Positions 8,401 through 48,830 of a stretch of DNA of 64,000 nucleotides are shown here, in pieces. The position numbers and the translations under genes are program-made. Every line of letters begins with the position of its first letter. Position 1 is the stretch's first letter. The notes beneath the pieces are model-generated. The model was not told the origin of the DNA and did no database searches. It worked only from the letters and a program-made list of their open reading frames with translations. Origin of the DNA: Nitrospirota bacterium (GTDB lineage: Bacteria; Nitrospirota; Nitrospiria; SBBL01; JAADHI01); assembly GCA_029261215.1 (NCBI GenBank), contig JAJDBT010000082.1:1-64000 (forward strand), in the 5' to 3' direction.

Positions 8401-8430
8401 TTTTACTCAACCCCCCCCCCCGGCTGTCAA
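8401..8430 (-). promoter_or_regulatory. Possible promoter with a G11 spacer tract before pilD
   Basis: On the minus strand TTGACA (8430-8425) is followed by GCC, eleven G (8421-8411) and TTGAG, then TAAAAA (8405-8400). The present spacing is 19 bases, and a loss of two G would give the optimal 17. The -10 match is only moderate (4 of 6). It lies about 95 bases upstream of the pilD start. Confidence 0.35.
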
Positions 8431-8525
8431 ACTTTGAAAACGTTCAGCGCTCCTTGGTGTATGATTTTTCTTTTAATATAGCTCGCAACTGAATTATACT
8501 TTTTAAACTCTGCTAAAAAAACACG

Positions 8526-8975
8526 TTGAAGCTGTTTGAAACGTGTGGCGCTCGAATAGAGGGGCCTGTGTCTCAACTTGTTCCAAAAGAAAACCGGCTG
8601 CGAACCCGGTCTATTCCTTATGATCTCACCATTCTAGGTATTGTGATGATTGTTTCTGGGATTATGGACACCTACCTGATTATAGCCAACCCTGATTATC
8701 GGCTGCCCATTTTTGGAATGAAGTTGGAAGGACCCTTGGGCTGGTACCTGAACCTGCTTTTCCCTGTGATCCATTTTATTGTGGGTTATGGTGTTCTTTT
8801 GGCCCGGAGATGGTCTTATCTTCTTTTTATGGGATTTACCCTCTATGGCATTATCAGCGCTAGCGTGAATTTTTTGAGGCTTCCACCACCTCATAATATT
8901 AGAACAGTGTTCTTAATAGTGAGTTTCATTGTTCTGGGCTACTTATATGTGAGGCGGAGACAGTTTAAACATTGA
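8526..8975 (+). CDS. Small four-helix membrane protein of unknown function
   Basis: I do not recognise this 149-residue protein. It has four predicted membrane helices, at about residues 33-53, 71-92, 96-115 and 126-142, with a basic C-terminus (VRRRQFKH). The initiation codon given is a TTG without an obvious ribosome site. A GTG at 8568, preceded by AGAGGGG, is an equally good start and would remove the first 14 residues. The gene stands alone between the pilus operon (divergent) and a tRNA-Leu gene, so context gives no clue. The layout resembles small DoxX-like or DUF-type integral membrane proteins, but no motif supports a specific assignment. Confidence 0.65.
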   Translation: MKLFETCGARIEGPVSQLVPKENRLRTRSIPYDLTILGIVMIVSGIMDTYLIIANPDYRLPIFGMKLEGPLGWYLNLLFPVIHFIVGYGVLLARRWSYLLFMGFTLYGIISASVNFLRLPPPHNIRTVFLIVSFIVLGYLYVRRRQFKH

Positions 8976-9058
8976 ATTGACAGTTAATATTATTTCGCGA
9001 TTACAAGTCCCAAATTCTTGATTAAATGGGGGCGATATGATAGAAGTTGAGCCTCTTT

Positions 9059-9145
9059 GGGCGCGTGGCGGAATTGGTAGACGCAGCAGTCTCAAAAACT
9101 GCCGGGGGTAACCTCATGCCAGTTCGATTCTGGCCGCGCCCACCA
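9059..9145 (+). tRNA. tRNA-Leu (anticodon CAA)
   Basis: The acceptor stem GGGCGCG (9059-9065) pairs with CGCGCCC (9135-9141), followed by discriminator A and an encoded CCA. The anticodon arm GCAGT-CTCAAAA-ACTGC gives anticodon CAA, reading UUG. The T arm contains GTTCGATTC. The long variable arm is that of a class II tRNA, as expected for leucine. Confidence 0.97.
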
Positions 9146-9296
9146 TTAAATATAAGTCATATTGATATGCTGGTAAAAAGAATTTATTTTTTTAAAATAG
9201 TAAGAATTTTTAGTGAATAGTAGGTGTTTTGAGCCCCTTCTTGACACTAAAATACCTGCATGGTAGGGTTTTTGAGATAATATCCGGAGTATTAGA

Positions 9297-10196
9297 ATGG
9301 CGAAGTCTGGTGATTCATATACTGTAGTCGTTTTTTCGGGTTCTAATACTTCAGAGCCCCGTCGATTTTCACTGAAAAAAGGTTTTCTGAAGTTCTTCCT
9401 CGGAGCGACTATTTCCTTTTTCGTTGTTTTTGTTGTCATTTCTGTTCAATTTTACCAAGTAGCACAACAGGTCAAAGACCTCGGCCCGCTCCGCAAAGAA
9501 AACAAAGCACAAAAAATTCAGATACAGGGGTTTTCCGGTACGATTGAAGACCTTAAAAGTCAAGTACTGCGTTTGGTCGAGTTTGACCGAAAGTTACGTG
9601 TGATGACTGATATTGGTCCGCCAAAAGGGAGTATCAATTCTTTTGGCGTCGGAGGTTCCGAAGACGGAAGCGCTGCACAGTCTGGTATTTCGATGGAAGA
9701 CTCAATGCGTCGGGAGCTGGAATTGTTGCAGTCTAGGGTCATCGAACAGGAAAAAAGTTACCAGGAACTGGAAGAAGTTGTTCAAGATCGACAATCTCTT
9801 TGGGCGTCTACACCATCAATTTGGCCAACATCAGGTTGGTTAAGTTCTACTTTTGGTAAGCGGATCTCTCCTTTTTCCGGACGACTCCAGAATCATAACG
9901 GGATAGACATTGCGGCACGTCCTGGTACCCCTATTGTCGCGCCAGCGTCTGGGGTTGTCAGTTATTCTCGCTTTAATGGCGGGTTTGGACGTTTTCTGAA
10001 GATAGACCACGGGTACGGTATTAAAACTCACTATGGACATCTTTCTAAAATATCGGTTAAAGTCGGTCAACAAGTAAAACGAGGCGAAGTGATTGCTTAC
10101 GTTGGGAATACTGGCCTTTCGACTGGGCCGCATCTCCACTACGAAGTCTCCGTGAACAAAGTTACGATTGATCCAATGCGATATATCCTTAATTAG
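9297..10196 (+). CDS. M23 family metallopeptidase (LytM domain), membrane anchored
   Basis: The 299-residue protein has a basic cytoplasmic N-terminus, one membrane helix (about residues 33-53), a coiled coil (about 55-95), a second coiled segment near 145-165 and a C-terminal LytM/M23 domain (about 195-295). The zinc and catalytic residues are present: HNGID (His and Asp), HYGHL, and the HLH of GPHLHYEV. It is therefore predicted to be an active endopeptidase cutting peptidoglycan cross-links in the periplasm, rather than a degenerate activator. CGGAG seven bases before the ATG supports the start. It follows tRNA-Leu and stands alone transcriptionally. Similar proteins act in cell separation or in enlarging the mesh for envelope machines. 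Confidence 0.93.
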   Translation: MAKSGDSYTVVVFSGSNTSEPRRFSLKKGFLKFFLGATISFFVVFVVISVQFYQVAQQVKDLGPLRKENKAQKIQIQGFSGTIEDLKSQVLRLVEFDRKLRVMTDIGPPKGSINSFGVGGSEDGSAAQSGISMEDSMRRELELLQSRVIEQEKSYQELEEVVQDRQSLWASTPSIWPTSGWLSSTFGKRISPFSGRLQNHNGIDIAARPGTPIVAPASGVVSYSRFNGGFGRFLKIDHGYGIKTHYGHLSKISVKVGQQVKRGEVIAYVGNTGLSTGPHLHYEVSVNKVTIDPMRYILN

Positions 10197-10353
10197 GAGA
10201 GATCTTTTTTAAGGGTGGTAACTTCACCCTGGTGCAAAACAAGAAAAGGTGGATTAATCGAGTCTGAGTGCGCGCTTTTTCTTGGATTATCAACACTAGT
10301 ATGTCACATGTGAAAGTGTGTCGTATTTGGGGAAAAGGAGGTTTGTAGGGCAG

Positions 10354-10560
10354 ATGGCGGTCAAAGGAAAAGTAAAATGGTTTAATGAGAAAAAGGGGTT
10401 TGGATTTATTGAGAGAGAAGAAGGAGATGATGTCTTTGTTCATTTCTCTGCGATTCAAGGCGAGGGTTTTAAAACATTATCTGAAGGACAGGTGGTTGAG
10501 TTTGAGGTCATCCAAGGGGAGAAAGGACCACAAGCCTCCGATGTTGTTCCATCCGAATAG
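10354..10560 (+). CDS. Cold shock protein (CspA family)
   Basis: The 68-residue product is a single cold-shock domain with both nucleic-acid-binding motifs, KGFGFI (RNP1) and VFVHFSAI (RNP2), and the family start [11 protein letters not shown]. An in-frame GTG 36 bases upstream would add a non-conserved extension, so the ATG at 10354 is chosen. It has AGGG close by and a stronger AGGAGG further upstream. Binding single-stranded RNA as a chaperone is the family role. The gene is monocistronic: a strong intrinsic terminator follows its stop. Confidence 0.95.
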
Positions 10561-10583
10561 AAAAAATTAGAAGAGAATGATCA

Positions 10584-10622
10584 AGCCCCGGCAGGTATTC
10601 TTTTGCCGGGGCTTTTTTTTTA
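10584..10622 (+). terminator. Intrinsic terminator after the cold shock gene
   Basis: AGCCCCGGCA (10584-10593) pairs perfectly with TGCCGGGGCT (10604-10613) across a 10-base loop and is followed by a run of T. This is a textbook rho-independent terminator. Confidence 0.95.
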
Positions 10623-10703
10623 AAACAATGGCAAGAAAAAAAAGCCTATGCTAAAATAATCAGAAGTATTTTTGCTTATTTTTTGCTTTTTAAGGAGAAC
10701 ATC

Positions 10704-13394
10704 ATGTTAGGTGTCGGAAGCCTCGTTCGGAAGGTGATCGGGAGTAGAAATGAACGTGAATTAAAACGGCTTTGGCCTGTTGTTTCAAAGGTAAATGACT
10801 TGGAAGAGACCATTTCTAAGCTTTCGGATGAGGCGTTACGACAGAAAACTTCCGAATTTCGTAAAAGGCTGAATATTCCCGAAACAGGTGATTTGCCAGA
10901 AACGATGGATCTGAAAGCGCTCTCAGAAGGGCTGGATGCCATCATGCCTGAGGCATTTGCTGTTGTTCGTGAAGCTTCGAGGCGTGTACTGGGGATGCGT
11001 CATTTTGATGTCCAGATACTGGGGGGGGCTGTGCTTCATGAGGGGAAAATAGCCGAGATGAAGACGGGCGAAGGAAAAACGCTGGTCGCTACCTTACCTG
11101 TTTATCTGAACGCATTGACGCGCCGGGGTGTGCATGTGGTGACAGTCAATGATTATCTGGCGGGACGTGACTCTGAGTGGATGGGGCGGCTTTATCGTTT
11201 TTTAGGACTGACTGTGGGCATTATCCAGCATGATGAGGCAGATACAGACCGTCAGGCAGCCTATAATGCCGATGTGACTTACGGGACGAACAACGAGTAT
11301 GGTTTTGATTATCTTCGCGATAACATGAAATTTGATCCCAAGCAGTTTGTGCAGCGAAAACATTATTTTGCGATCATTGATGAAGTAGACAGTATTTTAA
11401 TTGACGAAGCGAGAACCCCGCTTATTATTTCCGGTCCTGCGGAAAACTCGACGGAGCTTTATTATCGAGTGAACCAGATTATTCCTCATTTGAAAAAAGA
11501 GGAAGATTATACGATTGAAGAGAAAACAAAAACAGCCACATTGACCGAAGAGGGCAACGCCAAGGTTGAGAAATTATTAGGAATAGAAAACCTGTATGAC
11601 CTATCGAATATCTCGCTGGTACATCATGTTTCTCAGGCTTTAAAAGCCCATGTCCTTTTTAGACGGGATGTTGATTACGTCGTAAAAGACGGTGAAGTTA
11701 TTATTGTCGATGAGTTTACGGGACGCATGATGCCGGGCCGACGCTGGAGCGATGGTCTTCATCAAGCAACTGAAGCCAAAGAAGGCGTGAAGATTGCGAA
11801 CGAAAACCAGACATTAGCTTCAATTACCTTTCAAAACTATTTTCGACATTATGAAAAATTAGGGGGGATGACTGGAACGGCGGATACCGAGGCGGCTGAA
11901 TTTCAAAAAATATACAACCTTGAAGTGATTGTGCTTCCCACAAATCGCCCCCTGACCCGAATAAATGAAGCGGACGTGATTTATCGGACGGAAAAAGAGA
12001 AATTTAATGCCATTGTCGAGCAAATCATTGAATACCACAAAATTGGACGGCCTGTACTCGTGGGAACGATTTCTATTGAGAAATCGGAGCAAATTGGCGC
12101 TCTTCTAAAGCGAAACGGGGTACCACATTCTGTATTGAATGCAAAATATCACGAGAAAGAGGCCGATATTATTTCTCAAGCTGGAAGAAAAGGTGCTGTG
12201 ACGATTGCGACCAATATGGCTGGACGTGGGACGGATATTCTTTTGGGAGGCAATGCGGACTTTTTGTTCAAGCAGTACGAACATCAGCATCCCGATGCAA
12301 CGCCGGAGGCCCTGGAAGCAGCACGACTCAGGATCGATCAGGAGATTGAAGCCGAGAGACAGGAAGTGCTCGAGTTGGGCGGCCTTCATATTATTGGGAC
12401 AGAACGCCATGAATCGCGGCGTGTCGATAATCAGTTGCGTGGCCGGGCAGGGCGACAGGGTGATCCCGGCTCGTCTCGCTTTTACCTCTCGCTTGAAGAT
12501 GATCTGCTCCGTATTTTTGGTTCTGAAAAAATTTCAAACCTCATGAGCCGTATGGGCATGGAAGAGGGGATTCCGATTGAGCACGGCATGGTGACAAAGG
12601 CCATTGAGAATGCACAAAAGCGGGTCGAAGGACATAACTTTGATATTCGAAAGCAGCTCCTGGAATATGACGATGTGATGAACAAGCAGAGAATGGTGAT
12701 CTATGATCGTCGACGGGATGTGCTTTCAAGGGACGAGATTAGTGAAGATATTCAGGAGATGATCGAGGAGGAAGTAGATGAATTACTGGATATTCATTGT
12801 CCCGAAGAGTCCTATTCCGAGGCCTGGAATGAAGAGGGTCTTTCTGAAGGACTGTTGCATCAGTTTGGGCTTGCCCTTGAAAAGGAAGTGTTCAACTTTT
12901 CAACGACCGGACGAGAAGCTTTACGGGAAGAGATTATGGAACGCGTCCGTACTTTATATGCAAAGAGGCATGCAACAATTGGCACGGAGCTTGTTCACAC
13001 ACTCGAAAAGCAAATTTTTCTGAGAATGATTGATACCCAATGGAAAGACCACCTTCTGGCGATGGATTCTCTGAAAGAGGGGATTGGGCTCCGGGGTTAT
13101 GGACAAAAAGAACCCTTGAGCGAATATAAAAAAGAAGGTTTTGACATGTTTGCAGGCATGATCGACCGGATTAAACGGGATACTGTCGAGCACCTTTTTC
13201 ATGTTCAGGTTGTGAATGAAGAGGAAAAAGTGGAGCAGCTTGCTTCTGTTTTCCAAAAAACGCAATCCATGCAAATGAACCGAGGCGAATTACCAGCCAA
13301 AAAGACGATTCACCGTGAAGAGAAAAAAGTGGGAAGAAATGATCCCTGTTCTTGCGGCAGTGGTAAAAAACATAAGAAGTGTTGTGGGAAATAG
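10704..13394 (+). CDS. secA: Protein translocase subunit SecA
   Basis: SecA is the ATPase that drives preproteins through SecYEG. The 896-residue protein has the Walker A (MKTGEGKT), the DEAD-type Walker B (IIDEVDS), the [10 protein letters not shown] helicase motif and the [13 protein letters not shown] arginine-finger motif. A C-terminal SEC-C zinc site ([13 protein letters not shown]) that binds SecB and ribosomes is intact. The ATG at 10704 is preceded by AAGGAG. An in-frame TTG 21 bases upstream is unlikely to be used. The length is typical. Its final codons overlap the alternative start of the following diguanylate cyclase gene, so the two may be co-transcribed. Confidence 0.98.
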
Positions 13395-38189: not shown

Positions 38190-38897
38190 GTGGCAAGCCT
38201 GCGTCAAAAAATTTCAGCCTCGAAGTTTGTCCTTGTTTTAAGCGGGGCAGGGATTTCCGCTGAAAGTGGGATTCCGACATTTCGGGGAAAAGAAGGGCTC
38301 TGGAAAAACCATCGCGCGGAAGATTTGGCAAGCCCTGCGGCTTTTCAGCGTGACCCCAAGCTGGTTTGGGCCTGGTATCGGTGGCGACGGGCCTTAATTG
38401 CCTCAAAAAAAACCAATGCGGCTCATGAGGGACTGGTGCGGCTTGAAGCGCGCATGCCCAGATATCAGTTAATTACCCAAAATGTGGATGGTTTTCATGG
38501 ATTGGCTGGCAGCCGAAAAATGATCGAGCTGCATGGGAATATCTGGAGGATGCGTTGTACGTCTTGCGGAGAAAAAATAGAAAATCATGACCCGGATTTA
38601 CCTGAGCTTCCCAGATGTTTAAAGTGCGAGGCCCTTTTGAGACCCGATATTGTCTGGTTTGGAGAAGGAATCAATGCGAATGATTTAGAGCAAAGTATCC
38701 AGAGTTGCCGAGCCTGTGATTTGATGCTGGTGATTGGAACCTCTGCGGTGGTGCAACCTGCCGCTTCGTTTGCCTCAATCGCTAAAGAAGCGGGCGCCTA
38801 CCTCGTGGAAATCAATCCAGTACCTTCTCTTTCAGGCTTGTCGGATGTCACGCTGGTCGGAAAAGCGGCCGAGATTGTTCCGAAAATCGTTGATTAG
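38190..38897 (+). CDS. cobB: NAD-dependent protein deacylase (sirtuin, SIRT5-like class)
   Basis: The 235-residue sirtuin has the NAD motif GAGISAESGIPTFRG, TQNVDGFH, the catalytic His115 (HGN) and a zinc site of Cys123, Cys126, Cys143 and Cys146. Tyr63 and Arg66 form the YxxR pair that in SIRT5 and CobB recognises succinyl or malonyl groups, so desuccinylase activity is likely besides deacetylation. It starts at GTG with a weak ribosome site. Its 3' end overlaps the convergent oxidase gene by 4 bases. Confidence 0.93.
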   Translation: MASLRQKISASKFVLVLSGAGISAESGIPTFRGKEGLWKNHRAEDLASPAAFQRDPKLVWAWYRWRRALIASKKTNAAHEGLVRLEARMPRYQLITQNVDGFHGLAGSRKMIELHGNIWRMRCTSCGEKIENHDPDLPELPRCLKCEALLRPDIVWFGEGINANDLEQSIQSCRACDLMLVIGTSAVVQPAASFASIAKEAGAYLVEINPVPSLSGLSDVTLVGKAAEIVPKIVD

Positions 38898-40792
38898 GGT
38901 AAGGACGATTTTTCGGCTGAGGGACTTGTACTCCCTGAAGTGACGGGCTGGGTTTTCATTGCATAGGTTTTTGTTGTTCTTCGATTACTGAGCCAAAAGA
39001 TCGCCGTGGTAATCATCCAAAAAACCACCACATTAAAAATGACCATTCCAACCGCATAAGTGAGGGAAGGGGTTTCGGCCCAGGGCGTCACATCCTTGAG
39101 TATCTCAGTCACATGCCAATCCAGTCGAACCGAGGAACGAATATATCCCATTAAAACCATCGTAGTGGAAATAAAGACGGCGAGCGCAAACAGGGCAAAC
39201 GCGCCAGAGCTGGGCAGTTTTCCCCACTGAATTGGCCCGATCATTTTTGATTTCCTTAGCATCAGAATATTGAGGATCATCCCTCCGGCCAAGGCCCCGA
39301 TAGCGGCCATAAATTGAGGAAAGGCCAGGTTCACCCGGACATTGGCTGGAATGAAAAAACCGTAAACGCCAATAAAGATGACAAAAGCCTCCGCCCCGAT
39401 AAACATCAGCGCCATCGCCCAGTTTCCCCATCGGGCCCATGACACCGTGATTTCTTTATTGCAGCGATGAAAGATGATGTAACAAAGCCCGAAACTAAGA
39501 ATCATGGTATTGATGGCCGTATTTTTTGCCGCCATTGTTCCGTAGTACCCGACGATGGGGTGCTGGGTTCCGCCCATCGCTGCAAATTCACCCCGGCTGG
39601 CGGGGAGGGTATGCGGGGTGGCCCAAATCAGAAAGGCGGCGGCGAGGATAAACATCGTGTATTTGACCAGATGCTGGTAGCGCTCGGACCCTAGCATACG
39701 GGTTGTACCCTGCCAGAGATAATAAGTAACCGTCATAAAAATCAGTCCAATCAGCATCGCCTGCATGATGAAGGGCCAGCTCAGCTGGCCTCCCATTAAA
39801 GTAACCCCCATCCGTTGCCGGTAAATAAAAATTTCTTTTGCAAACCAGTAGCCGGCAAAAGGAAGAATAAACAGATTGACGATGGCGATCATAATCGAGA
39901 CATGCCCCATCCAGTCGTAATGTGCGCGTTTTTCAGGGTCGCGGGTGGTTAGCATTTGAAACGCGGCGTATGCCGCAATGACCGCCCCGCTAAACATGAT
40001 GCTGGCCAATATGCGATGAATGTTTAAGGGATTCCAAAGGGGGGTGTTGACCGCATTCCAGAGATTTCCAAGGTAGCGACCCTCGGAATCGACCCCGGCG
40101 GGCGACATCATAAAAGCCATTAGGGCATTGGCCAGATAGATAATCGCGAGGCCATTGAAGCAGGTCGCGGCGCCCAAAGCCAAATGCCGCCATTTTGCAG
40201 AGCCTGTTTTCCAGCGATCCCATGTTTTTGTGTAGGCATAGAGCAGTACATTTTCTAGAAAAAAGACAAGCACATAAAGGTAAAGCACAGGTTTGAAAAC
40301 AGAAGACATATATCTCGAAAATTCGCTATACAAGAAAATAAATGCGCCGAGCAAGGCGCATCCGAAAACAATGGTGAGCGGGTAAAAAGGCAGTCCAATT
40401 CGCATGAATTCATGGGCCAGGGCATCATGTTTACTGGCTTGGGATGGATCTGCTTTTCGACGGAAAAAGCTGAAAATTTCGAGCATCCATGCGATCATCG
40501 GGACACCCAAAATAAAGCTTCCGAGAAAAAAGTGTTGTTGAATAAGCACCCAAAGGATGGAACGGTTGTCGAGCTTGCCTCCCCGATCATAACTTTGCGG
40601 ATAGCTGAGCTTAGGTGCGGGAGGCCCTGATATGGTGCCCGGCGTTTTAAAGTAGATATCCTCAGCCACTTCAGCCGCGCTGGCTTGCGAAGGATTCTCT
40701 TTCGCAAAAATGAATGTTGTTGAAAGCAGTACCAATGCTGGCAGTAGAAAAGAAAGAGAGAGTCCCATCCAAGTTTGGCGACGAATCATCAT
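38894..40792 (-). CDS. Cytochrome bd-like oxidase subunit (CydA-like, paralogue 1)
   Basis: This 632-residue polytopic membrane protein has a signal-like N-terminus and about fourteen membrane helices. It matches the bd-like oxidase of Nitrospira and relatives rather than classical CydA, and it has no CydB partner. His residues shared with the 42.7 kb paralogue lie in QQH of the first core helix, LAHE, HRI, AHYDWM, TPHTL, QHP and WHV. These are the candidate heme b ligands. By homology it is a membrane heme protein thought to reduce oxygen, but its mechanism is unproven. Its likely partner cytochrome c is at 32.9-34.1 kb. Its 3' end overlaps the sirtuin gene. Confidence 0.88.
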   Translation of the reverse strand: MMIRRQTWMGLSLSFLLPALVLLSTTFIFAKENPSQASAAEVAEDIYFKTPGTISGPPAPKLSYPQSYDRGGKLDNRSILWVLIQQHFFLGSFILGVPMIAWMLEIFSFFRRKADPSQASKHDALAHEFMRIGLPFYPLTIVFGCALLGAFIFLYSEFSRYMSSVFKPVLYLYVLVFFLENVLLYAYTKTWDRWKTGSAKWRHLALGAATCFNGLAIIYLANALMAFMMSPAGVDSEGRYLGNLWNAVNTPLWNPLNIHRILASIMFSGAVIAAYAAFQMLTTRDPEKRAHYDWMGHVSIMIAIVNLFILPFAGYWFAKEIFIYRQRMGVTLMGGQLSWPFIMQAMLIGLIFMTVTYYLWQGTTRMLGSERYQHLVKYTMFILAAAFLIWATPHTLPASRGEFAAMGGTQHPIVGYYGTMAAKNTAINTMILSFGLCYIIFHRCNKEITVSWARWGNWAMALMFIGAEAFVIFIGVYGFFIPANVRVNLAFPQFMAAIGALAGGMILNILMLRKSKMIGPIQWGKLPSSGAFALFALAVFISTTMVLMGYIRSSVRLDWHVTEILKDVTPWAETPSLTYAVGMVIFNVVVFWMITTAIFWLSNRRTTKTYAMKTQPVTSGSTSPSAEKSSLP

Positions 40793-40970: not shown

Positions 40971-41801
40971 ATGGATAAGATCTTTGTCAGGGTGTACACG
41001 CTTTTTATTCTGTTTTTTGTCGGTATCGGGGTCTTTATGATTATAAAGTCGAGACCAGGGGACAAGACCGATGCCGTGGCCAAAAACCCCATTAACTTCA
41101 CCGAACCGATAATAGAAAATCCGATGATTCTGATACCGGCAGGTGAATTTATTATGGGAGCAAATGACGGTGGTATCGATGAGCAGCCCCAGCGTGTGGT
41201 TTATCTCGATGCTTTTGCCATACATCAATATGAAGTGACGATATATCAATACAATGAGTTTGTTGTTGCGACTGGTCACAGACAGCCTTTAAACCGCTAT
41301 GTGAAAGACATCCATTTTTTTAATAACGCAAATCAGCCTGCTATATATGTCAGTTGGCTGGATGCCTATGATTATTGTCAATGGGCCGGATTACGTTTGC
41401 CAACGGAAGCAGAGTGGGAAAAAGCGGCGAGAGGCACAGAAGGCCTGTCCTGGCCCTGGGTCGAAAAATATCAGCCAACATTTGCAAACTTTAAAGGGGA
41501 AGAGGATCACGGGGTATTTACAACGGCCGTTGGATCATACGAAAAAGATAAAAGTCCATACGGGGTTTATGATATGGCGGGCAATGTTAAAGAATGGGTC
41601 CAGGATTGGTATGATGATCGATATTATGCCAATGCCCCGCTAAAAAACCCTCAAGGTCCAGAGCGCGGCGAAATGAAGGTCATGAGAGGTTCCTCGTGGA
41701 GGGATTCTCTCTATTCGGGGAGAGCAACGGGACGCTTGCAAATGGTTCCCGGTTATCGATATGAAGCGGTCGGATTTAGATGCGCGAAGAGTGCAGGGTA
41801 A
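40971..41801 (+). CDS. FGE-sulfatase-domain protein, membrane anchored, no catalytic Cys
   Basis: One N-terminal membrane helix (about residues 7-26) precedes a formylglycine-generating-enzyme-type domain (about 50-276), recognised from IPAGEFIMG, LRLPTEAEWEKAARG, YDMAGNVKEWVQDWY and RGSSWRDS. The C-terminal block where active enzymes carry cysteines reads SLYSGRATGRLQM, without any. It is therefore not a sulfatase activator and probably a structural or maturation factor, as in NirV-like proteins next to respiratory enzymes. A run of ten A separates the GAGG ribosome site from the ATG by an unusually long 14 bases. It lies between the two oxidase genes, divergent from the first. Confidence 0.88.
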   Translation: MDKIFVRVYTLFILFFVGIGVFMIIKSRPGDKTDAVAKNPINFTEPIIENPMILIPAGEFIMGANDGGIDEQPQRVVYLDAFAIHQYEVTIYQYNEFVVATGHRQPLNRYVKDIHFFNNANQPAIYVSWLDAYDYCQWAGLRLPTEAEWEKAARGTEGLSWPWVEKYQPTFANFKGEEDHGVFTTAVGSYEKDKSPYGVYDMAGNVKEWVQDWYDDRYYANAPLKNPQGPERGEMKVMRGSSWRDSLYSGRATGRLQMVPGYRYEAVGFRCAKSAG

Positions 41802-41859: not shown

Positions 41860-42003
41860 TTAAATAAGGTCTAACCAGTAAAGCAGAAAGAAAATAACCA
41901 TCAAGACATTGAAAATAAGGCCTATGATAATAAACATGTCGTAAAGAGGCGAGTTTTTATGCGAATAATAGGCGGCATCTTCGTGTTTTTCAGGTAATTT
42001 CAT
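41860..42003 (-). CDS. 47-residue single-helix membrane protein
   Basis: The start ATG at 42003 has GAGGAGG eight bases before it. The peptide has a charged, Tyr-rich N-terminus (MKLPEKHEDAAYYSHKNSP) and one membrane helix (about residues 23-44, FIIIGLIFNVLMVIFFLLYW). This is the layout of small accessory subunits of respiratory complexes. It is divergent from the two small proteins and second oxidase gene that follow. It resembles no family that I can name. Confidence 0.68.
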   Translation of the reverse strand: MKLPEKHEDAAYYSHKNSPLYDMFIIIGLIFNVLMVIFFLLYWLDLI

Positions 42004-42096
42004 GTGTATTCCTCCTCAAATCAATAGTGTAGCAAATAACCATAAATCCATAAATAAAGTCAAGTCTCAATGGAAAAATAAATGCTGTATTTGAAC

Positions 42097-42125
42097 TTGA
42101 CAAGGGCTGTTATTTGGTCTATAGT
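42097..42125 (+). promoter_or_regulatory. Strong sigma-70-type promoter of the second oxidase operon
   Basis: TTGACA (42097-42102), a 17-base spacer and TATAGT (42120-42125) give a nearly consensus promoter. Transcription would begin near 42132, about 50 bases before the first small gene. Confidence 0.82.
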
Positions 42126-42181
42126 CCCGTCATTTCAAGGCCAAAAAAACTGTATTCACATTCTTAAAGGGGGGTCTAGAC

Positions 42182-42298
42182 ATGGCAGAAGGTACGCCAA
42201 AGGCAAATATCGGGAAAAAGCTCTTTTGGCTATCCGTAGCGTTTTTGTGCTGGGTTAGCTGGTATTCAATGCATGCACCACCTGGGTTTATCCATTAA
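42182..42298 (+). CDS. 38-residue single-helix membrane protein
   Basis: The ORF starts at ATG 42182, with AAAGGGGGG upstream, and encodes a peptide with a basic start (PKANIGKK), a membrane helix (about residues 13-28, rich in Trp) and a short tail ending GFIH. It is the first gene after the promoter at 42097. Its pattern, charged start, G-K-K/Q-K, then a single helix, is shared with the next ORF, so the two may be duplicated small subunits of the oxidase, comparable in position and size to CydX. No sequence similarity to CydX is claimed. Confidence 0.68.
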   Translation: MAEGTPKANIGKKLFWLSVAFLCWVSWYSMHAPPGFIH

Positions 42299-42391
42299 AT
42301 CCAGATGAATTTGGGTTTTTACAGGAGATTAAGGTTAATAAAGAGAGCAAGTCAAAGAACAAAAATATTTTATCAAAGAGGGGCATAGAAA

Positions 42392-42538
42392 ATGTCAGAT
42401 AACAAAGAAGAGGCAAAAGTAGGTCTTGGTCAAAAAATTGTCTTCGGATTGGCGATGTTTGTTGCATCGGGCCTTTATTACATTGTTTTTTTGAATAAGT
42501 CGCTCATGGTGTTGCAAAACCTCGCGTATCCCTATTAA
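42392..42538 (+). CDS. 48-residue single-helix membrane protein
   Basis: ATG 42392 is preceded by AGAGGGG. The peptide has an acidic-basic start (MSDNKEEAKVGLGQK), a membrane helix at about residues 16-35 (FGLAMFVASGLYYIVFL) and ends in YPY. It lies 94 bases after the 38-residue gene and 133 bases before the oxidase gene on the same strand, downstream of the same promoter. The likely role is as a small structural subunit of the oxidase complex, inferred only from position, size and topology. Confidence 0.68.
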   Translation: MSDNKEEAKVGLGQKIVFGLAMFVASGLYYIVFLNKSLMVLQNLAYPY

Positions 42539-42670: not shown

Positions 42671-44605
42671 ATGTTAAATCTAAGTGGCGAGAAAAAAAAG
42701 AAGGTAGGAGCTTGGCTCTTACTGAGCATGATCGGCATGCTCGTTCTTCTCCCATTTGCCCCGGCTGTCGTTATGGCAGCAGAAGAGGCGGCAGTGGAAG
42801 AGGCGAAGGAGCCGGAAAAAGCAAAAGACGTTTTTTATAAAGAAGAGGGTGAGTTTGGTATTGTTTCAGGTCCTCCAGCCGGAGAGCTTGTGTATCCAGA
42901 TGATTATGGTTCTTATGGCGACTTTCAGAGTCGTACGATAATCTGGATTTCAAACCAGCAGCATCTGTATTTTGGAAGTTTTGTTTTGGCTGTGCCTATG
43001 TTTGTATGGGTTATGGAGCTGATCGGGATTCTTCAATATGAAAAGAACCCGAAGGTGGGTAAAAAGTTTGATGATCTTGCGCACGAAATGATGAAGATTA
43101 GTTTGACCGCTTATTCCGTGACCGCTATTTTGGGCGGAATTTTGATTTTTTCGTTTCTCGCTTTGTATCCAGGTTTCTTCCGCTATCTTTCCGGAATCTT
43201 TAAACCTGTAATGCACATTTATGCACTGCTTTTTATTTTGGAAAGTGGTGTTTTATATGTCTATTACTACGGATGGGATAGCATGAATGACGGAAATGGT
43301 GACTGGAAATGGAGTCATCTTTCTCTCGGAACCATTTTAAATGCCGTCGGTATTGTTTTGATGGTGATGGCCAACACCTGGGTGAGTTTTATGATGTCAC
43401 CCGCCGGGGTTGATGCGGAAGGGCGTTTTCTTGGAGATATCTGGAAGGTCATGCATAACCCCTTGATGGTGCCGGTTGTGGTGCATCGTATCCTTGGGAA
43501 TGCCGCCTTTGGTGGTGGTGTTGTTGCCGCTTATGCGTCCTTTAAGTTTCTTTCAGCTAAAACACTTGAAGAAAAAGCGCATTATGACTGGATGAGCTAT
43601 ATCGCCATGTTTATGGGGATTCTTGCGCTGATCCCGCTTCCATTTGCGGGTTATTGGTTGATGAGAGAAATTTATGCTTATCGTCAGCAGATGGGGATTA
43701 CCCTGATGGGTGGATTGTTGGCTTGGGTGTTTATTATGCAGGCGACAATGATTGCAACCCTGTTCATTACAGTGAACTATTATCTTTTTCAGGCCATGGG
43801 TCGTATGCCGGGTTCCGAACGGTATTACAAGTACTTCAAGGTCTTGTTGGCTATTTTGGTGGTGGCCACCATTGCCTGGTTGACTCCTCATACGCTCGTG
43901 ATGACACCTGCAGAATTGAAAGCCATGGGTGGCGCACAGCATCCGGTTGTCGGAAACTATGGGGTGATGTCGGCAAAGAATACAGCCATCAATACCATGA
44001 TTACGACGACGGTGGTCAGTTTTATTATCTATCAACGATCAAACTTTAAACTTACAGTGCCGTGGGCCTGGAAGGGAAACATCTTTCTTGCCATGCTGAT
44101 CTTAGGAGCGGAAGTCAATATCCTGTTCCTGGGCGTATACGGATACTTTATTCCGGCAAACGTCCGTATTGGACTGTCTGTTCCCCAGGTGGCTTCAACC
44201 TTGAGCGTGCTGTTTATAGGTGTCGCCGTTAATACGAAGATGTTGAAAGGCGCTGAGTCTATCGGAGAGATCCGTTGGGGGAAAATGTCTGTGCGGGGAG
44301 CCTATGCGCTTTTTATGCTCGCTGTGGCATTTACCTGGACTATGGCTGTGATGGGTTATCTTCGCTCCTCTGTCCGCCTTCACTGGCATGTCAATGAGAT
44401 TCTTCGAGATAACTCCCCTTGGGCGTTTACAAACCCGCTCGGTTATGCAGGGAATATTAACTCGTTGAATGTTCTTCTATTCTGGACGATGTTGCTCTTT
44501 GTCTTCTGGTTAAGCGCCCTTGCTGGTGCAGGTAAGAAGAAAGTTGAGGCTGAAGAGGCAGCGGCTGCGGCAGTTGGAAAGGCCGTCCCGGCTGGAAGTC
44601 ACTGA
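42671..44605 (+). CDS. Cytochrome bd-like oxidase subunit (CydA-like, paralogue 2)
   Basis: This 644-residue polytopic protein is a clear full-length paralogue of the minus-strand gene at 38.9-40.8 kb. It has a cleavable-looking N-terminus (VVMAAEE), then about fourteen helices. QQH near residue 98 starts the core, and the shared histidines are in LAHE, VHRI, AHYDWM, TPHTL, QHP and WHV. GAGGAGG lies 7 bases before ATG 42671. The overlapping TTG start three bases earlier is less well spaced. The C-terminus is Ala/Glu-rich. It heads the run of three cytochrome genes that ends at 48.8 kb, and is presumably the oxygen- or quinone-reacting core of that complex. Confidence 0.9.
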   Translation: MLNLSGEKKKKVGAWLLLSMIGMLVLLPFAPAVVMAAEEAAVEEAKEPEKAKDVFYKEEGEFGIVSGPPAGELVYPDDYGSYGDFQSRTIIWISNQQHLYFGSFVLAVPMFVWVMELIGILQYEKNPKVGKKFDDLAHEMMKISLTAYSVTAILGGILIFSFLALYPGFFRYLSGIFKPVMHIYALLFILESGVLYVYYYGWDSMNDGNGDWKWSHLSLGTILNAVGIVLMVMANTWVSFMMSPAGVDAEGRFLGDIWKVMHNPLMVPVVVHRILGNAAFGGGVVAAYASFKFLSAKTLEEKAHYDWMSYIAMFMGILALIPLPFAGYWLMREIYAYRQQMGITLMGGLLAWVFIMQATMIATLFITVNYYLFQAMGRMPGSERYYKYFKVLLAILVVATIAWLTPHTLVMTPAELKAMGGAQHPVVGNYGVMSAKNTAINTMITTTVVSFIIYQRSNFKLTVPWAWKGNIFLAMLILGAEVNILFLGVYGYFIPANVRIGLSVPQVASTLSVLFIGVAVNTKMLKGAESIGEIRWGKMSVRGAYALFMLAVAFTWTMAVMGYLRSSVRLHWHVNEILRDNSPWAFTNPLGYAGNINSLNVLLFWTMLLFVFWLSALAGAGKKKVEAEEAAAAAVGKAVPAGSH

Positions 44606-44681: not shown

Positions 44682-45959
44682 ATGGCTAAGAAAAAGGGTT
44701 CAGGAGTCATAGTAGTAAAGGTTGCGCTTTGGTACATCACCATTTTGAGTATTTTTGCAGCGTATACCAACTGGCTGCCACAGATTCGAGGAGATGCCCC
44801 GGAAGCCGCTGAAGCAATTGATGTTTCAGCGATTACGCCTGAAGGCTTGCAGGAAATGGGCGGGATGATTATTTTCGGGACGGATGATCCCCTCGGTACA
44901 CTCGCGAGAGGAGAAGGTCCGATTGGAAAAGGTCAGTGTCCGCTCTGTCATCGTTTTTTTATGGAGCAAAAAGCGGATCGTTGTCCGAACCTGATCGCAT
45001 TAAAAACAGAGCCTCAATTGCTGCTTCAGGTTAGCGAAGAGGAACGTTCACATGAACGTGTCAAAGAACCGCGTTATGAAGAATTTAAGAAACTGCATGC
45101 GGATGGTGAAAAGAACTCCGGGCATGTTCCTCACGCGGAAACGGGTGGACAGTACTTGATCGAATCTGAGTACTGCCCGAACTGTTTTGTGGTCGAGGGT
45201 TTTGGCTTGAAGGGAACAAATGATACCGAAAGCCCAATGCCGATTATCAATAAACCTCCAATTTTGCTGGTCGATACCGAGATTGTCGCTGTCGTAAGCT
45301 TCCTGCAGATGAGGGATGATCCTACCAAATGGACCGCAAAGGATGACTGGGAAGCCTATTTTGGTAAGGATTTGGCTTCCGAAGGTGGAGATGAAGCACC
45401 TGCAGAAGTTAAACCTGCCGGACCGCCTGTTGCCTTAGGCTCTGAAACACCGGAAGAAATTGTGACAAAAATGACTTGTTATGCTTGTCATAAAATTCCG
45501 GGGATCTCAGTGGCCAAAACCGGAGCGATTGGTCCTCTTTTGATTGAGGGAACAAATGCGCCAAATCGGATTAAGTCACCTGAATACAAGGCCGCGATGA
45601 AGGCGGGTACCGCCCATGCGACGACAGCACGTGAATATATCATTGAATCAATTATGGATCCGGGAGCCTTTATTGTTCCTGGTTTTGCCGACGACATGAT
45701 GAAGGATTTTAAGCATAAATTCACTGTGTCTGGTCTGGACGTGCTTGTAGATCATTTGATTGCTCAGGATGAAGCGGCGGCGCTTGCCGATGGTTTAGAC
45801 CGTCTTGCAAATGAAAAAGAAGGCCCAATCAAAAAACCGGAAGCAAAAGTCGAGACAGGTGAAGCATTCGCCAAAAATCAGTCGAAAACAAATGAGATGA
45901 CGATCCAGGTTTCAAACAAAAAGCTGATCGAAAACTCAACGTTTATCGGCTTGAATTAA
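44682..45959 (+). CDS. Membrane-anchored diheme cytochrome c (oxidase-associated, paralogue 2)
   Basis: A single N-terminal membrane helix (about residues 9-28) anchors two cytochrome c modules with CPLCH at 86-90 and CYACH at 266-270. Candidate Met ligands lie in SPMPI and DDMMKDF. Each module ends in a similar block (YLIESEYCPNCFVVEG and EYIIESIMDPGAFIVPG), so the protein arose by internal duplication. The CPNCF in the first block is not a heme motif. AGAGGAGAAG supports the start. It follows the bd-like oxidase and a hairpin, and is a paralogue of the gene at 32.9 kb. It probably passes electrons to the oxidase. Confidence 0.91.
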   Translation: MAKKKGSGVIVVKVALWYITILSIFAAYTNWLPQIRGDAPEAAEAIDVSAITPEGLQEMGGMIIFGTDDPLGTLARGEGPIGKGQCPLCHRFFMEQKADRCPNLIALKTEPQLLLQVSEEERSHERVKEPRYEEFKKLHADGEKNSGHVPHAETGGQYLIESEYCPNCFVVEGFGLKGTNDTESPMPIINKPPILLVDTEIVAVVSFLQMRDDPTKWTAKDDWEAYFGKDLASEGGDEAPAEVKPAGPPVALGSETPEEIVTKMTCYACHKIPGISVAKTGAIGPLLIEGTNAPNRIKSPEYKAAMKAGTAHATTAREYIIESIMDPGAFIVPGFADDMMKDFKHKFTVSGLDVLVDHLIAQDEAAALADGLDRLANEKEGPIKKPEAKVETGEAFAKNQSKTNEMTIQVSNKKLIENSTFIGLN

Positions 45960-45990: not shown

Positions 45991-46992
45991 ATGAGTAAGT
46001 TTAAAATAAAGGCTTTCTTTGCCCAGCTCCTGGCGCTGATCCTGGCTGCACCGATGATCGCCTGGGCCGGTGGTGGAGGTGGCCCTTTTGATGCCGGTAC
46101 ATTCTCCGCCATTAAAGTGGGCTTGGTGGTATTTGCAATTTTTTCCGCGTGGTTGATTAAAGATAAAATGGGACTTCCGCTCCCCAAGTTAATCCAGGCG
46201 CCATTGTTATGGATTATCTGTTACATCGGGTTTCGAGTGATCCTGCAGCCGCCCATCCCATTTTCATTGCTTGCAATGTACATGGGGGTTTGTACGGTGT
46301 GTATCTTTCTGTACTGCTCCCTCACGCGGCCTTCATGGGAGGAATTTTCACACCCCATCGCAGTGATGTTGAGAGAAGATCACGCAACAGCAAAGATGTC
46401 TCGTTATGCGACATTTTTGATTATCCCGGGCTTGATTGCCGCTCAAACATACAATCAAATGCTTCCGAAATTTGGAGAGCCGATTGAGTTGAGAACGGTT
46501 CATCCCGCACCACCAGCAAGCATTAATGTTCATAAAAAGTTGGTGACACTCCAAACAGCGGAAAACCCTTTTCGTATTGGAGATGATGGCAACTACCTGA
46601 AGGTTGGAGACGAACAGAAATATTTTGGTGGCAACGCCTGGACAGGTGATGTGCCAAAATTTCTTCAAGAAGTTCAGCAGGGTGGTGTTGTTTTCTTTGG
46701 AACAGCCGGTTGTTTCTTTTGCCATGGTGATAACTTGGATGGTAAAGGGCCCTTCTCGTTTGCCTTTAATCCGATTCCCGCAAACTTCGCGGATCCTGGG
46801 ACGATTTCTCAGTTACAGGAAACATTCGTGTTCTGGCGCGTCGCTAAAGGTGGCCCGGATCTTTCTCGGGAAGCTTTTCCTTGGGCCTCAGCAATGCCGC
46901 CATGGGAAAAACATTTGACGACAAACGAGATCTGGAAAGTGATTATCTTTGAATACTGGCACACAGGATTCTTTCCAAGAACTTGGGGATAA
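45991..46992 (+). CDS. Integral membrane monoheme cytochrome c
   Basis: The 333-residue protein has a signal-like helix followed by three or four membrane helices within residues 10-152 and a C-terminal periplasmic cytochrome c domain with CFFCH at 241-245. The Met in SAMPPWE is the likely distal ligand. ATG 45991 is preceded by GGAGG, while an in-frame TTG 27 bases upstream is unlikely. The combination of a multi-helix membrane part and cytochrome c suits a subunit tethering electron transfer to the oxidase. It lies between the diheme cytochrome and the cytochrome/EB_dh fusion, separated from each by short gaps. Confidence 0.88.
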   Translation: MSKFKIKAFFAQLLALILAAPMIAWAGGGGGPFDAGTFSAIKVGLVVFAIFSAWLIKDKMGLPLPKLIQAPLLWIICYIGFRVILQPPIPFSLLAMYMGVCTVCIFLYCSLTRPSWEEFSHPIAVMLREDHATAKMSRYATFLIIPGLIAAQTYNQMLPKFGEPIELRTVHPAPPASINVHKKLVTLQTAENPFRIGDDGNYLKVGDEQKYFGGNAWTGDVPKFLQEVQQGGVVFFGTAGCFFCHGDNLDGKGPFSFAFNPIPANFADPGTISQLQETFVFWRVAKGGPDLSREAFPWASAMPPWEKHLTTNEIWKVIIFEYWHTGFFPRTWG

Positions 46993-47057: not shown

Positions 47058-48830
47058 ATGATAGAAAAGATAGAAGAAAAAGGCGGCCTGAAAGGGGCAA
47101 TCTTGGGGATGGGGGCTGTTATTGCGACAACCTTGGTCTTTGGATTGGCAATCCCCGGACAAGCACAGGTATTTAGAGTGGATCCAGCACCCATGGAACC
47201 ATCTCCAGGAAAATATACGACAGGTACCTTCTCCGGCAATCCGGAGTCTGGTAAAGGCGTGTATTTCAGGAAATGTGTCTGGTGTCACGGGCCGGATGGT
47301 GCTGGCGATGGGCCTTCAGCGATTCGCTTGGTGACCAAACCGAGGAATTTTAATCAGGGAACCTTTAAAATTCGTCATACAGCAAGTGGTGAATTGCCGA
47401 CGGATGAAGACCTTTTTAACTCGGTGACTCATGGTCTTCCAGGTTCAGTGATGCCCGCTTGGGGAAGTATTCTTTCGGTCAATGAGCGAAAAGATGTTAT
47501 CGCGTTTATCAAAAAAGAGTTGGTGAAAGATCGACAATTTGATGACCCGGATGAAGAAATAACCGTCATTGACTATGGTACTCAGATCCCATCTTCTCCA
47601 GAAAGCATTGAGCTCGGACGTGACATTTTTATGAACAAGGCCAAATGTGTAGAATGTCATGGTGTCGAAGGTCGTGGAAATGGTAACTTGACCCAGAGAG
47701 ATGACTGGGGTTTTCCCATCTTCCCGGCGAACCTTCAGAAGCCCTGGAATTTGAGGGGAAATCGACGTGATCCTTACAATCCAAGAAATATTTTTCGTGA
47801 GGTTTCCACTGGATTGAATGGTACTCCGATGCCTTCCTTTAGGGATGAGCTTTCGGAAGAAGAAAGATGGCATGTCGCGAACTTTGTCATTTCATTGACA
47901 GAGGTCAAACGGCCAATTGACCCTGAAACGAGTCGTCCGATGATTGGATTTGTCATTAAATCCCGATATGTCCCAGATTCGGGTATCGTGCCAGATACAC
48001 CAACAGATGAAAAATGGTTGACGGTTCCTGCCCAGTTTGTGGGAATGGCAAGCCAGATTATTCAGCCGCCACGTCATTTTATCCGAACAGTGGATGATAT
48101 CCGTATTCGCTCACTTTACAACGATACGGAAATGGCACTTTTATTTGAGTGGGATGATCGGACTGAAAGTCATTTGAATCCGGATGCTGAAGCCAAATAC
48201 GACTTCAAACGTCTCTCTTCAGAGTCTTTTCCTGCAATCAACACGACACAGTACACGCATGAAAATGACGGCGAAAGAGGACCTTTGAAAGACGTGAATC
48301 CAGAGCCCGTTGGTGTCTATAATGATGGCATTGCGGTTCAGTTTCCTCAGGTTTGGGAAACACTCGCTCCGCCATTAAAACCATATTTTGTGCATGGTGA
48401 TGAGAAACATGGCGTGGATATCTGGAAATGGCAGGCGGATGGGACCGTGGAAGAAATCGAAGGTCACGGCATTGATGCCTTGCAAGTGAGAGAGGATAAA
48501 AACGTCAAAGTCACTTATGCCAAATGGGAAAATGGTCGTTGGCAAGTGATTATGAAACGGACTTTGTTGACAGAAGATAAAGAAAAGTCAGCACAGCTTG
48601 TGAATGGTACAAACATCCCAATGACTTTTTTTGCCTGGGATGGAGATGCCGGTGAAGTCGGTGGTCGTATGGCGCTTTCCACATTTTATTACTTAATGAT
48701 GGAGCCACCGATTCCAACTACAGTTTACATTTATCCTCCGATTGTCTTCTTTGTCTTGATTGGTTTGTTGAGCTGGGCGCGAGCTGCAGCGATTCAATTC
48801 AAGAAAGATCATGAAGGAGAAGAAGGTTAA
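47058..48830 (+). CDS. Diheme cytochrome c fused to an ethylbenzene-dehydrogenase-like heme b domain
   Basis: The order is a signal peptide or anchor (to about residue 36, PGQAQ), two cytochrome c domains with CVWCH at 73-77 and CVECH at 197-201, an EB_dh-type beta-sandwich domain (about 320-560) related to heme b subunits of DMSO-reductase-family enzymes, and a C-terminal membrane helix (about 566-584). GGGGGA precedes ATG 47058. The gamma-like subunit normally takes electrons from a molybdoenzyme such as nitrite oxidoreductase, and no molybdoenzyme gene is in the window. It may pass electrons from a periplasmic donor to the oxidase. It is the last gene before a strong terminator. Confidence 0.88.
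   Translation: MIEKIEEKGGLKGAILGMGAVIATTLVFGLAIPGQAQVFRVDPAPMEPSPGKYTTGTFSGNPESGKGVYFRKCVWCHGPDGAGDGPSAIRLVTKPRNFNQGTFKIRHTASGELPTDEDLFNSVTHGLPGSVMPAWGSILSVNERKDVIAFIKKELVKDRQFDDPDEEITVIDYGTQIPSSPESIELGRDIFMNKAKCVECHGVEGRGNGNLTQRDDWGFPIFPANLQKPWNLRGNRRDPYNPRNIFREVSTGLNGTPMPSFRDELSEEERWHVANFVISLTEVKRPIDPETSRPMIGFVIKSRYVPDSGIVPDTPTDEKWLTVPAQFVGMASQIIQPPRHFIRTVDDIRIRSLYNDTEMALLFEWDDRTESHLNPDAEAKYDFKRLSSESFPAINTTQYTHENDGERGPLKDVNPEPVGVYNDGIAVQFPQVWETLAPPLKPYFVHGDEKHGVDIWKWQADGTVEEIEGHGIDALQVREDKNVKVTYAKWENGRWQVIMKRTLLTEDKEKSAQLVNGTNIPMTFFAWDGDAGEVGGRMALSTFYYLMMEPPIPTTVYIYPPIVFFVLIGLLSWARAAAIQFKKDHEGEEG

Follow-up and report, generated by a model that had tools for sequence, protein, structure and literature searches.

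In canonical bd oxidases, a tiny single-helix protein (CydX, CydS or AppX) is encoded with the CydA-type oxidase, and a role as a clamp or in assembly has been proposed for it. In E. coli, CydX acts as a clamp on the bundles that bear the hemes, and assembly depends on it (PMC6853902, PMC8951039); its N-terminus is in the membrane and its C-terminus in the cytoplasm (PMC6853902). The fourth subunit of E. coli bd-I, CydY/CydH (YnhF), is a single helix of ~3 kDa located on CydA, with a gene that lies outside the cyd operon (PMC6853902). The bacterial aa3 cytochrome c oxidases also have a short single-helix subunit, subunit IV (PF07835, COX4_pro_2).

The bd-like proteins are described as being without the quinol-binding Q-loop residues (PMC3578206). 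Among them, the OR-N type CydAA' probably oxidises cytochrome c, and experiments have yet to confirm exactly which subunits it contains (PMC10839748). For most Nitrospirales the terminal oxidase is probably the NIDE0901-like OR-N2 CydA together with an OR-N1 CydA (PMC12342949), and the bd-like oxidase is regarded as the principal terminal oxidase by which Nitrospirales oxidise cytochrome c (PMC10579370); in N. moscoviensis the corresponding bd-like_2 region shows strong expression and has been put forward as complex IV (PMC6606698). In the portions of the literature accessible to us no mention was found of small subunits of the OR-N oxidase. The survey of Murali et al. 2021 was outside our search, and we do not claim that such subunits are absent from print. 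In contrast to the OR-N CydAA' as published in those portions, the oxidase described here is adjoined by three small genes.

A probable OR-N oxidase locus with three small genes

The window analysed here is a stretch of 64,000 nucleotides of Nitrospirota DNA, from a genome of 3.37 Mb with three bd-like genes. A first-pass annotation had pointed out three ORFs of 47, 38 and 48 codons (hereafter m47, m38 and m48) ahead of an oxidase gene, two of them behind a near-consensus promoter and the third divergent, and had suggested that they are equivalents of CydX and CydH in a bd-like complex. All three ORFs are present exactly where they had been placed, as is the promoter (Table 1). The genome has one clear copy of each; annotated plasmid copies of the small genes were looked for and none was found.

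Table 1. The oxidase cluster and its surroundings, in window coordinates
Feature	Coordinates	Strand	Basis and remarks
Second bd-like protein, inferred OR-N1-type partner	38894..40792	-	PF01654; not placed by tree
FGE-sulfatase (SUMF1-like) protein	40971..41801	+	PF03781; adjoins the cassette in most class loci
m47, 47-aa single-helix protein gene	41860..42003	-	Divergent; ORF list, pN/pS, single copy in class
Promoter, sigma-70-like, TTGACA-17-TATAGT	42097..42125	+	For m38-m48-oxidase; 11/12 match
m38, 38-aa single-helix protein gene	42182..42298	+	Predicted N-in/C-out; tail ends in His
m48, 48-aa single-helix protein gene	42392..42538	+	M..Q(G/N)L motif
bd-like oxidase, inferred NIDE0901-like OR-N2 CydA	42671..44605	+	PF01654
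Membrane-anchored cytochrome c, two CXXCH	44682..45959	+	CXXCH counted in homologues; weak cytochrome c matches
Membrane cytochrome c, one CXXCH	45991..46992	+	Domain searches, homologue CXXCH count
Diheme cytochrome c with ethylbenzene-dehydrogenase/DMSO-reductase-type-II gamma-like domain (alt_NxrC-like)	47058..48830	+	PF09459, PF13442; TIGR03477 match below family cut-off

The AlphaFold2 model of the oxidase (pLDDT 83.5, pTM 0.84) has CydA-type chains as its best PDB matches (best E 2.3e-7). In a profile comparison, residues 87-280 align to E. coli CydA, with H98 opposite H19 and E191 opposite E107, and neither H98 nor E191 varies among 58 oxidase rows. The H19 of E. coli CydA is a heme b595 ligand. 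Two features expected of an OR-N CydAA' cluster are a CydA-like N-terminal half with the heme-ligand His and a surrounding region that also encodes cytochromes c and another CydA-like protein; the former is met by the PF01654 match and H98, and the latter by the neighbourhood, so that on both grounds the oxidase fits the NIDE0901-like type. That the gene at 42671 is OR-N2 and the one at 38894 OR-N1 is inferred from the neighbourhood and from PMC12342949 and PMC6606698, with no tree behind it. The term "bd-like complex" has to be narrowed to the cytochrome c-linked OR-N/CydAA' family (PMC10839748, PMC12342949), which is no quinol bd oxidase.

The SUMF1/FGE-sulfatase-like protein at 40971-41801 is membrane-anchored. 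Most Nitrospirota loci have it ahead of the cassette, in some cases as two copies, and its role beside the oxidase is unexplained.

The small ORFs are genuine protein genes

Among seven genomes of the family (21 pairs), pN/pS was 0.17 for m47, 0.39 for m38 and 0.36 for m48, in a set where synonymous sites are near saturation. The other frames of the same DNA gave values of 0.87 to 4.05, with the exception of one antisense frame (0.38-0.46), in which the codon phase is taken to mirror that of the true frame. Loss of the reading frame or of the synonymous bias would have refuted the original claim, and both are kept. The sequences 5' of the m47, m38 and m48 starts (GAGGAGGAATACAC, AAAGGGGGGTCTAGAC and AGAGGGGCATAGAAA, respectively) are purine/G-rich and resemble ribosome sites, and each ORF has one hydrophobic stretch, which agrees with the ribosome site and single membrane helix initially assigned to each. 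A Shine-Dalgarno match of 5 or 6 of 6 was found for 18/33 m47, 21/33 m38 and 18/32 m48 homologues versus 4.7% of random positions, an enrichment of ~10-fold; four alignment rows in this count begin one or two codons off the start codon. The promoter lies 53-62 nt 5' of the m38 start in 10 of the 11 loci compared, the Nitrospira-like G029 being without it. Taken with the conserved gene order and oxidase linkage documented below, m47, m38 and m48 are genuine protein genes under purifying selection.

Single-sequence statistics are weak on their own. Under a strict rule (ATG, a substring of AGGAGGT and a helix) only two ORFs of the window sequence pass, namely m47 and an unrelated one in antisense, and two strict-rule ORFs were seen in 1 of 2000 shuffles. 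As a separate observation, nearly all order-level relatives compared have a conserved CCCG(T/A)-like start after the promoter (42097-42135), possibly a sign of shared oxidase regulation.

Each family has its own conserved residues. In m47 a Gly-x3-Asn lies inside the helix, both residues being present in 100% of 66 unique sequences. In m38 a Gly (100%), a Trp (97%) and a Phe (93%) are conserved, and His or Cys occurs within the last six residues in 64 of the 87 sequences; the remaining 23 have neither there, which is the case for most alphaproteobacterial members. In m48 the conserved residues are Gln and Leu (100% each), Met (92%) and Asp (85%), with the window's own m48 carrying Asn in place of the usual Asp and also in place of the Gly of QGL. 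Lys and Arg are found only on the N-side of the helix in all rows of m47 (33/33) and m38 (33/33), and both proteins are therefore predicted to be N-in/C-out; the topology of m48 is ambiguous by charge. In two marine loci, L146 and L159, which probably represent a single lineage, the helix of m38 runs C-terminally into a cytochrome c domain (PF13442, 7.7e-12). Domains that carry c-type heme must be periplasmic, and the fusion links m38 to electron entry.

No family in Pfam, NCBIfam or the PDB matched m47, m38 or m48, the best E in PDB profile searches with the small proteins being only 0.17. The weak labels that came up (TUNAR, YmiA-like, SecE, CCC_membrane, COX4_pro_2, MmdE) were rejected, none being above the cut-off where one was shown. 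No CydX model was among the Pfam/NCBIfam matches at E<=0.1 of the 33, 33 and 32 members, and hhalign against E. coli CydX gave a probability below 1% for each protein. CydX membership is accordingly ruled out by sequence for all three, and for m47 and m38 also by predicted topology, which is opposite to that of CydX (for m38 the C-terminal cytochrome c fusion says the same). CydH gave no family match in the Pfam/NCBIfam searches, a negative with no direct comparison to the CydH sequence behind it. At E<=0.1, PF07835 matched weakly in 2 of 33 m47 members (best E 0.0014), with no match reported for the window's m47; we rejected this identity, the match being weak and the neighbour being a CydA-type bd-like oxidase, not a heme-copper one.

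Linkage to the oxidase within and beyond Nitrospiria

Single-sequence queries at E<=1 gave matches in 15 (m48), 23 (m38) and 37 (m47) of 41 genomes. After removal of near-duplicates and the like, 33 of 37 m47, 33 of 36 m38 and 32 of 35 m48 matches were kept as alignments A1, A2 and A3; other dropped rows include one cut by a contig end and one partly unreadable. Profile searches then placed m48 in 126 and m38 in 128 of the 136 genomes of the class, every one of which (136/136) has some bd-like protein. The m47 profile matched in 142 of 345 genomes of the phylum, comprising 133 in the class, where it is single copy and five misses are listed, and nine weak matches outside.

An oxidase orthologue, defined as a match at E<1e-200, is found in 128 Nitrospiria-class genomes, and in 124 of these m48 and m38 each lie directly upstream of it on the same strand. 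In each of the four exceptions (G313, G276, G124 and G030) a contig end falls at the oxidase or at the small genes, and class genomes without m48 are also missing the orthologue at this threshold, or have the locus cut by contig ends. m47 is on the strand opposite to the oxidase in 109 of 109 same-contig cases, within ~1 kb in 102 and at 2.3-2.9 kb in 7. In this m47 linkage table, genomes unsampled in the phylum search count as "no hit", and some "no hit" genomes (e.g. G001, G013, G014, G016 and G017) did match in the single-sequence search.

Conservation upstream of bd-like oxidases in other Nitrospirota, which had been put forward as a check on the three ORFs, was found, and it extends further, to Proteobacteria. 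In the other Nitrospirota loci L111 and L114, and in the more distant L113, the order is m47-m38-m48-oxidase-cytochromes c with all genes co-directional. This operon is evidence for a link between m47 and the oxidase that does not depend on the inverted arrangement seen in the window, and the divergent m47 of Nitrospiria is thus a rearranged member of the same set. In a further locus, L116, an m47-like ORF lies 3' of the cluster, next to a 749-aa protein (8421-10877) in which cyt2 and an EB_dh cytochrome are fused. The survey of these four loci used an iterated m48 profile that had drifted into m38, and for later locus counts the profiles were rebuilt from alignments A1-A3.

A contig scan with a bd-like alignment gave 80 loci, mostly labelled Alpha-, Gamma- or Deltaproteobacteria, with some Nitrospirota and Nitrospinota, of which 68 had at least 900 nt upstream of the oxidase and were usable. 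With refined profiles, m48 was found in 67 of the 68, m38 in 53 and m47 (within 1.6 kb) in 29. As the refined profiles contain matches from the counted loci, the independent counts are those of the class-only profiles, with 54, 49 and 22, respectively. Dinucleotide-shuffled upstream DNA gave 0/68 profile matches per family in each of three repeats, and control stretches taken far upstream in these loci (n=53, class-only profiles) gave 6 for m47, 1 for m38 and 0 for m48. With the refined profiles, none of the nine loci labelled Deltaproteobacteria showed m38 beside the oxidase, and the Nitrospinae locus L140 showed none of the three. Given the former absence and the presence of m47 in only 29 of 68 loci, neither m38 nor m47 is obligatory in every lineage. 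The link is specific in that the window genome has a single clear copy of each small gene for its three bd-like genes, and in that five bd-like paralogues elsewhere (L124-L127 and L129) had no small-ORF matches; three of them adjoin NxrA-like genes, a label that is our reading of ~1150-aa neighbours with no family search behind it.

Several neighbourhoods had features of their own. Four Nitrospira-like genomes carry orphan second m38-like genes apart from the oxidase (L120:3954-4103, minus strand; L121:7704-7925, plus; L122:7638-7835, minus; L123:7954-8250, minus), the products of which end in ...FYWLNGIQCPC or ...FYWFNGIQCPC, with no bd-like oxidase in the stretch seen. In the gammaproteobacterial locus L196 (1588-5100), and also in L188, an m47-like ORF ~4 kb upstream adjoins a ~243-aa carboxypeptidase-regulatory-like and a ~830-aa HEAT-repeat protein. 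A 689-aa protein with universal-stress and several PCP_red domains is encoded 3' of an alphaproteobacterial cluster (L147:11158-13227).

Subunits, assembly partners and other possibilities

With considerable confidence, we interpret m47, m38 and m48 as single-helix proteins of the inner membrane, from three families unrelated to one another, that serve the OR-N-type oxidase as dedicated small subunits or lasting assembly partners. Their presence in the complex, the packing of their helices and their roles in assembly or electron entry are inferred, with no proteomic, ribosome-profiling or structural data at hand. Counting against this interpretation are the lineages in which m38 or m47 is missing, the L140 locus, the orphan m38-like genes, the m47 matches in control stretches, the ambiguous topology of m48 and the m38 members with no His or Cys at the end. 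The initial comparison with CydX and CydH therefore stands as a tiny-subunit reading, supported by conservation and linkage, and fails if it is taken to mean CydX itself. Like CydX, CydS and AppX, m48 and m38 are encoded beside a cydA-type gene; the differences are that here there are three proteins instead of one and that the cluster has no CydB. E. coli CydX serves as a functional model for the small helices by analogy, without family membership.

Under this interpretation, the three helices would most likely pack on the large subunit of CydA type, which has no CydB partner in the cluster, and would steady its heme-binding bundle as CydX does in canonical bd oxidases. They would also give form to the periplasmic side at which electrons arrive from the cytochromes c of the cluster. 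The QGL protein m48 would be the near-universal core partner, m38, with its N-terminus inside, would have its C-terminus placed at the electron-entry side, and m47 would supply the intramembrane Gly-x3-Asn.

Conserved linkage cannot tell a subunit from an assembly factor, and it also fits the main rival explanation, in which the small proteins are assembly or maturation factors (for heme or metal insertion, or for membrane insertion) with only a passing contact to the oxidase. The frequent His or CPC ending of m38, which could pass on a metal, and the fact that m38 or m47 is not kept in every lineage speak for such factors. However, the occurrence of m48 ahead of the oxidase in 67/68 outside loci suits a subunit, and the small subunits of canonical bd oxidases remain in the enzyme (PMC6853902, PMC8951039); we regard this rival as unlikely. 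Another improbable alternative is that the small proteins belong not to the oxidase core but to a neighbouring module, be it the cytochromes c, the SUMF1-like protein or a supercomplex of complexes III and IV. Such a module is suggested by the m38-cytochrome c fusion of L146 and L159 and by the supercomplex proposed for the N. moscoviensis region (PMC6606698), yet m48 and m38 adjoin the oxidase even where the SUMF1-like gene is missing and the cytochrome genes are rearranged.

Short ORFs between a promoter and the oxidase could also be leader peptides or regulatory elements, the translation of which matters and the product of which does not. It is very doubtful that this applies here, considering the protein-level conservation in distant lineages, the pN/pS values well below 1, the separate helix motifs, the fusion of m38 to a c-type cytochrome and the divergent orientation of m47. 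Chance ORFs, to which the weakness of single-sequence statistics might point, are effectively ruled out by all comparative results, namely frame-specific selection, class-wide conservation and linkage to the oxidase, and by the absence of any profile match in shuffled DNA.

Starting from the reading as small subunits or permanent partners, one may speculate further, with only a limited chance of being right, that the set are signature intrinsic subunits of a separate kind of cytochrome c oxidase, of the CydA type, in which CydB and the quinol site are replaced by three helices and cytochromes c. According to this speculation, the periplasmic tail of m38 (His, or Cys-Pro-Cys in Nitrospira-like genomes) would offer a docking point, or a ligand for a metal or heme, where electrons enter, the intramembrane Asn of m47 and the Gln that never varies in m48 would line a proton or oxygen path, and the arrangement would be common to nitrite oxidisers, relatives of the Mn-oxidiser and Proteobacteria of the sulfur-oxidiser type.

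Single-helix oxidase subunits are already known; what is new is three families without a database relative found, in an oxidase class of open composition. The three conserved small proteins provide a concrete and testable list for a subunit composition that is still unconfirmed, and extra helices to expect in an oxidase purification, a complexome profile or a cryo-EM map. m48 is also usable as a marker that sets cytochrome c-linked bd-like clusters apart from the paralogues beside NXR. m47, m38 and m48 look like hidden parts of the respiratory enzyme on which nitrite-oxidising Nitrospira are thought to depend.
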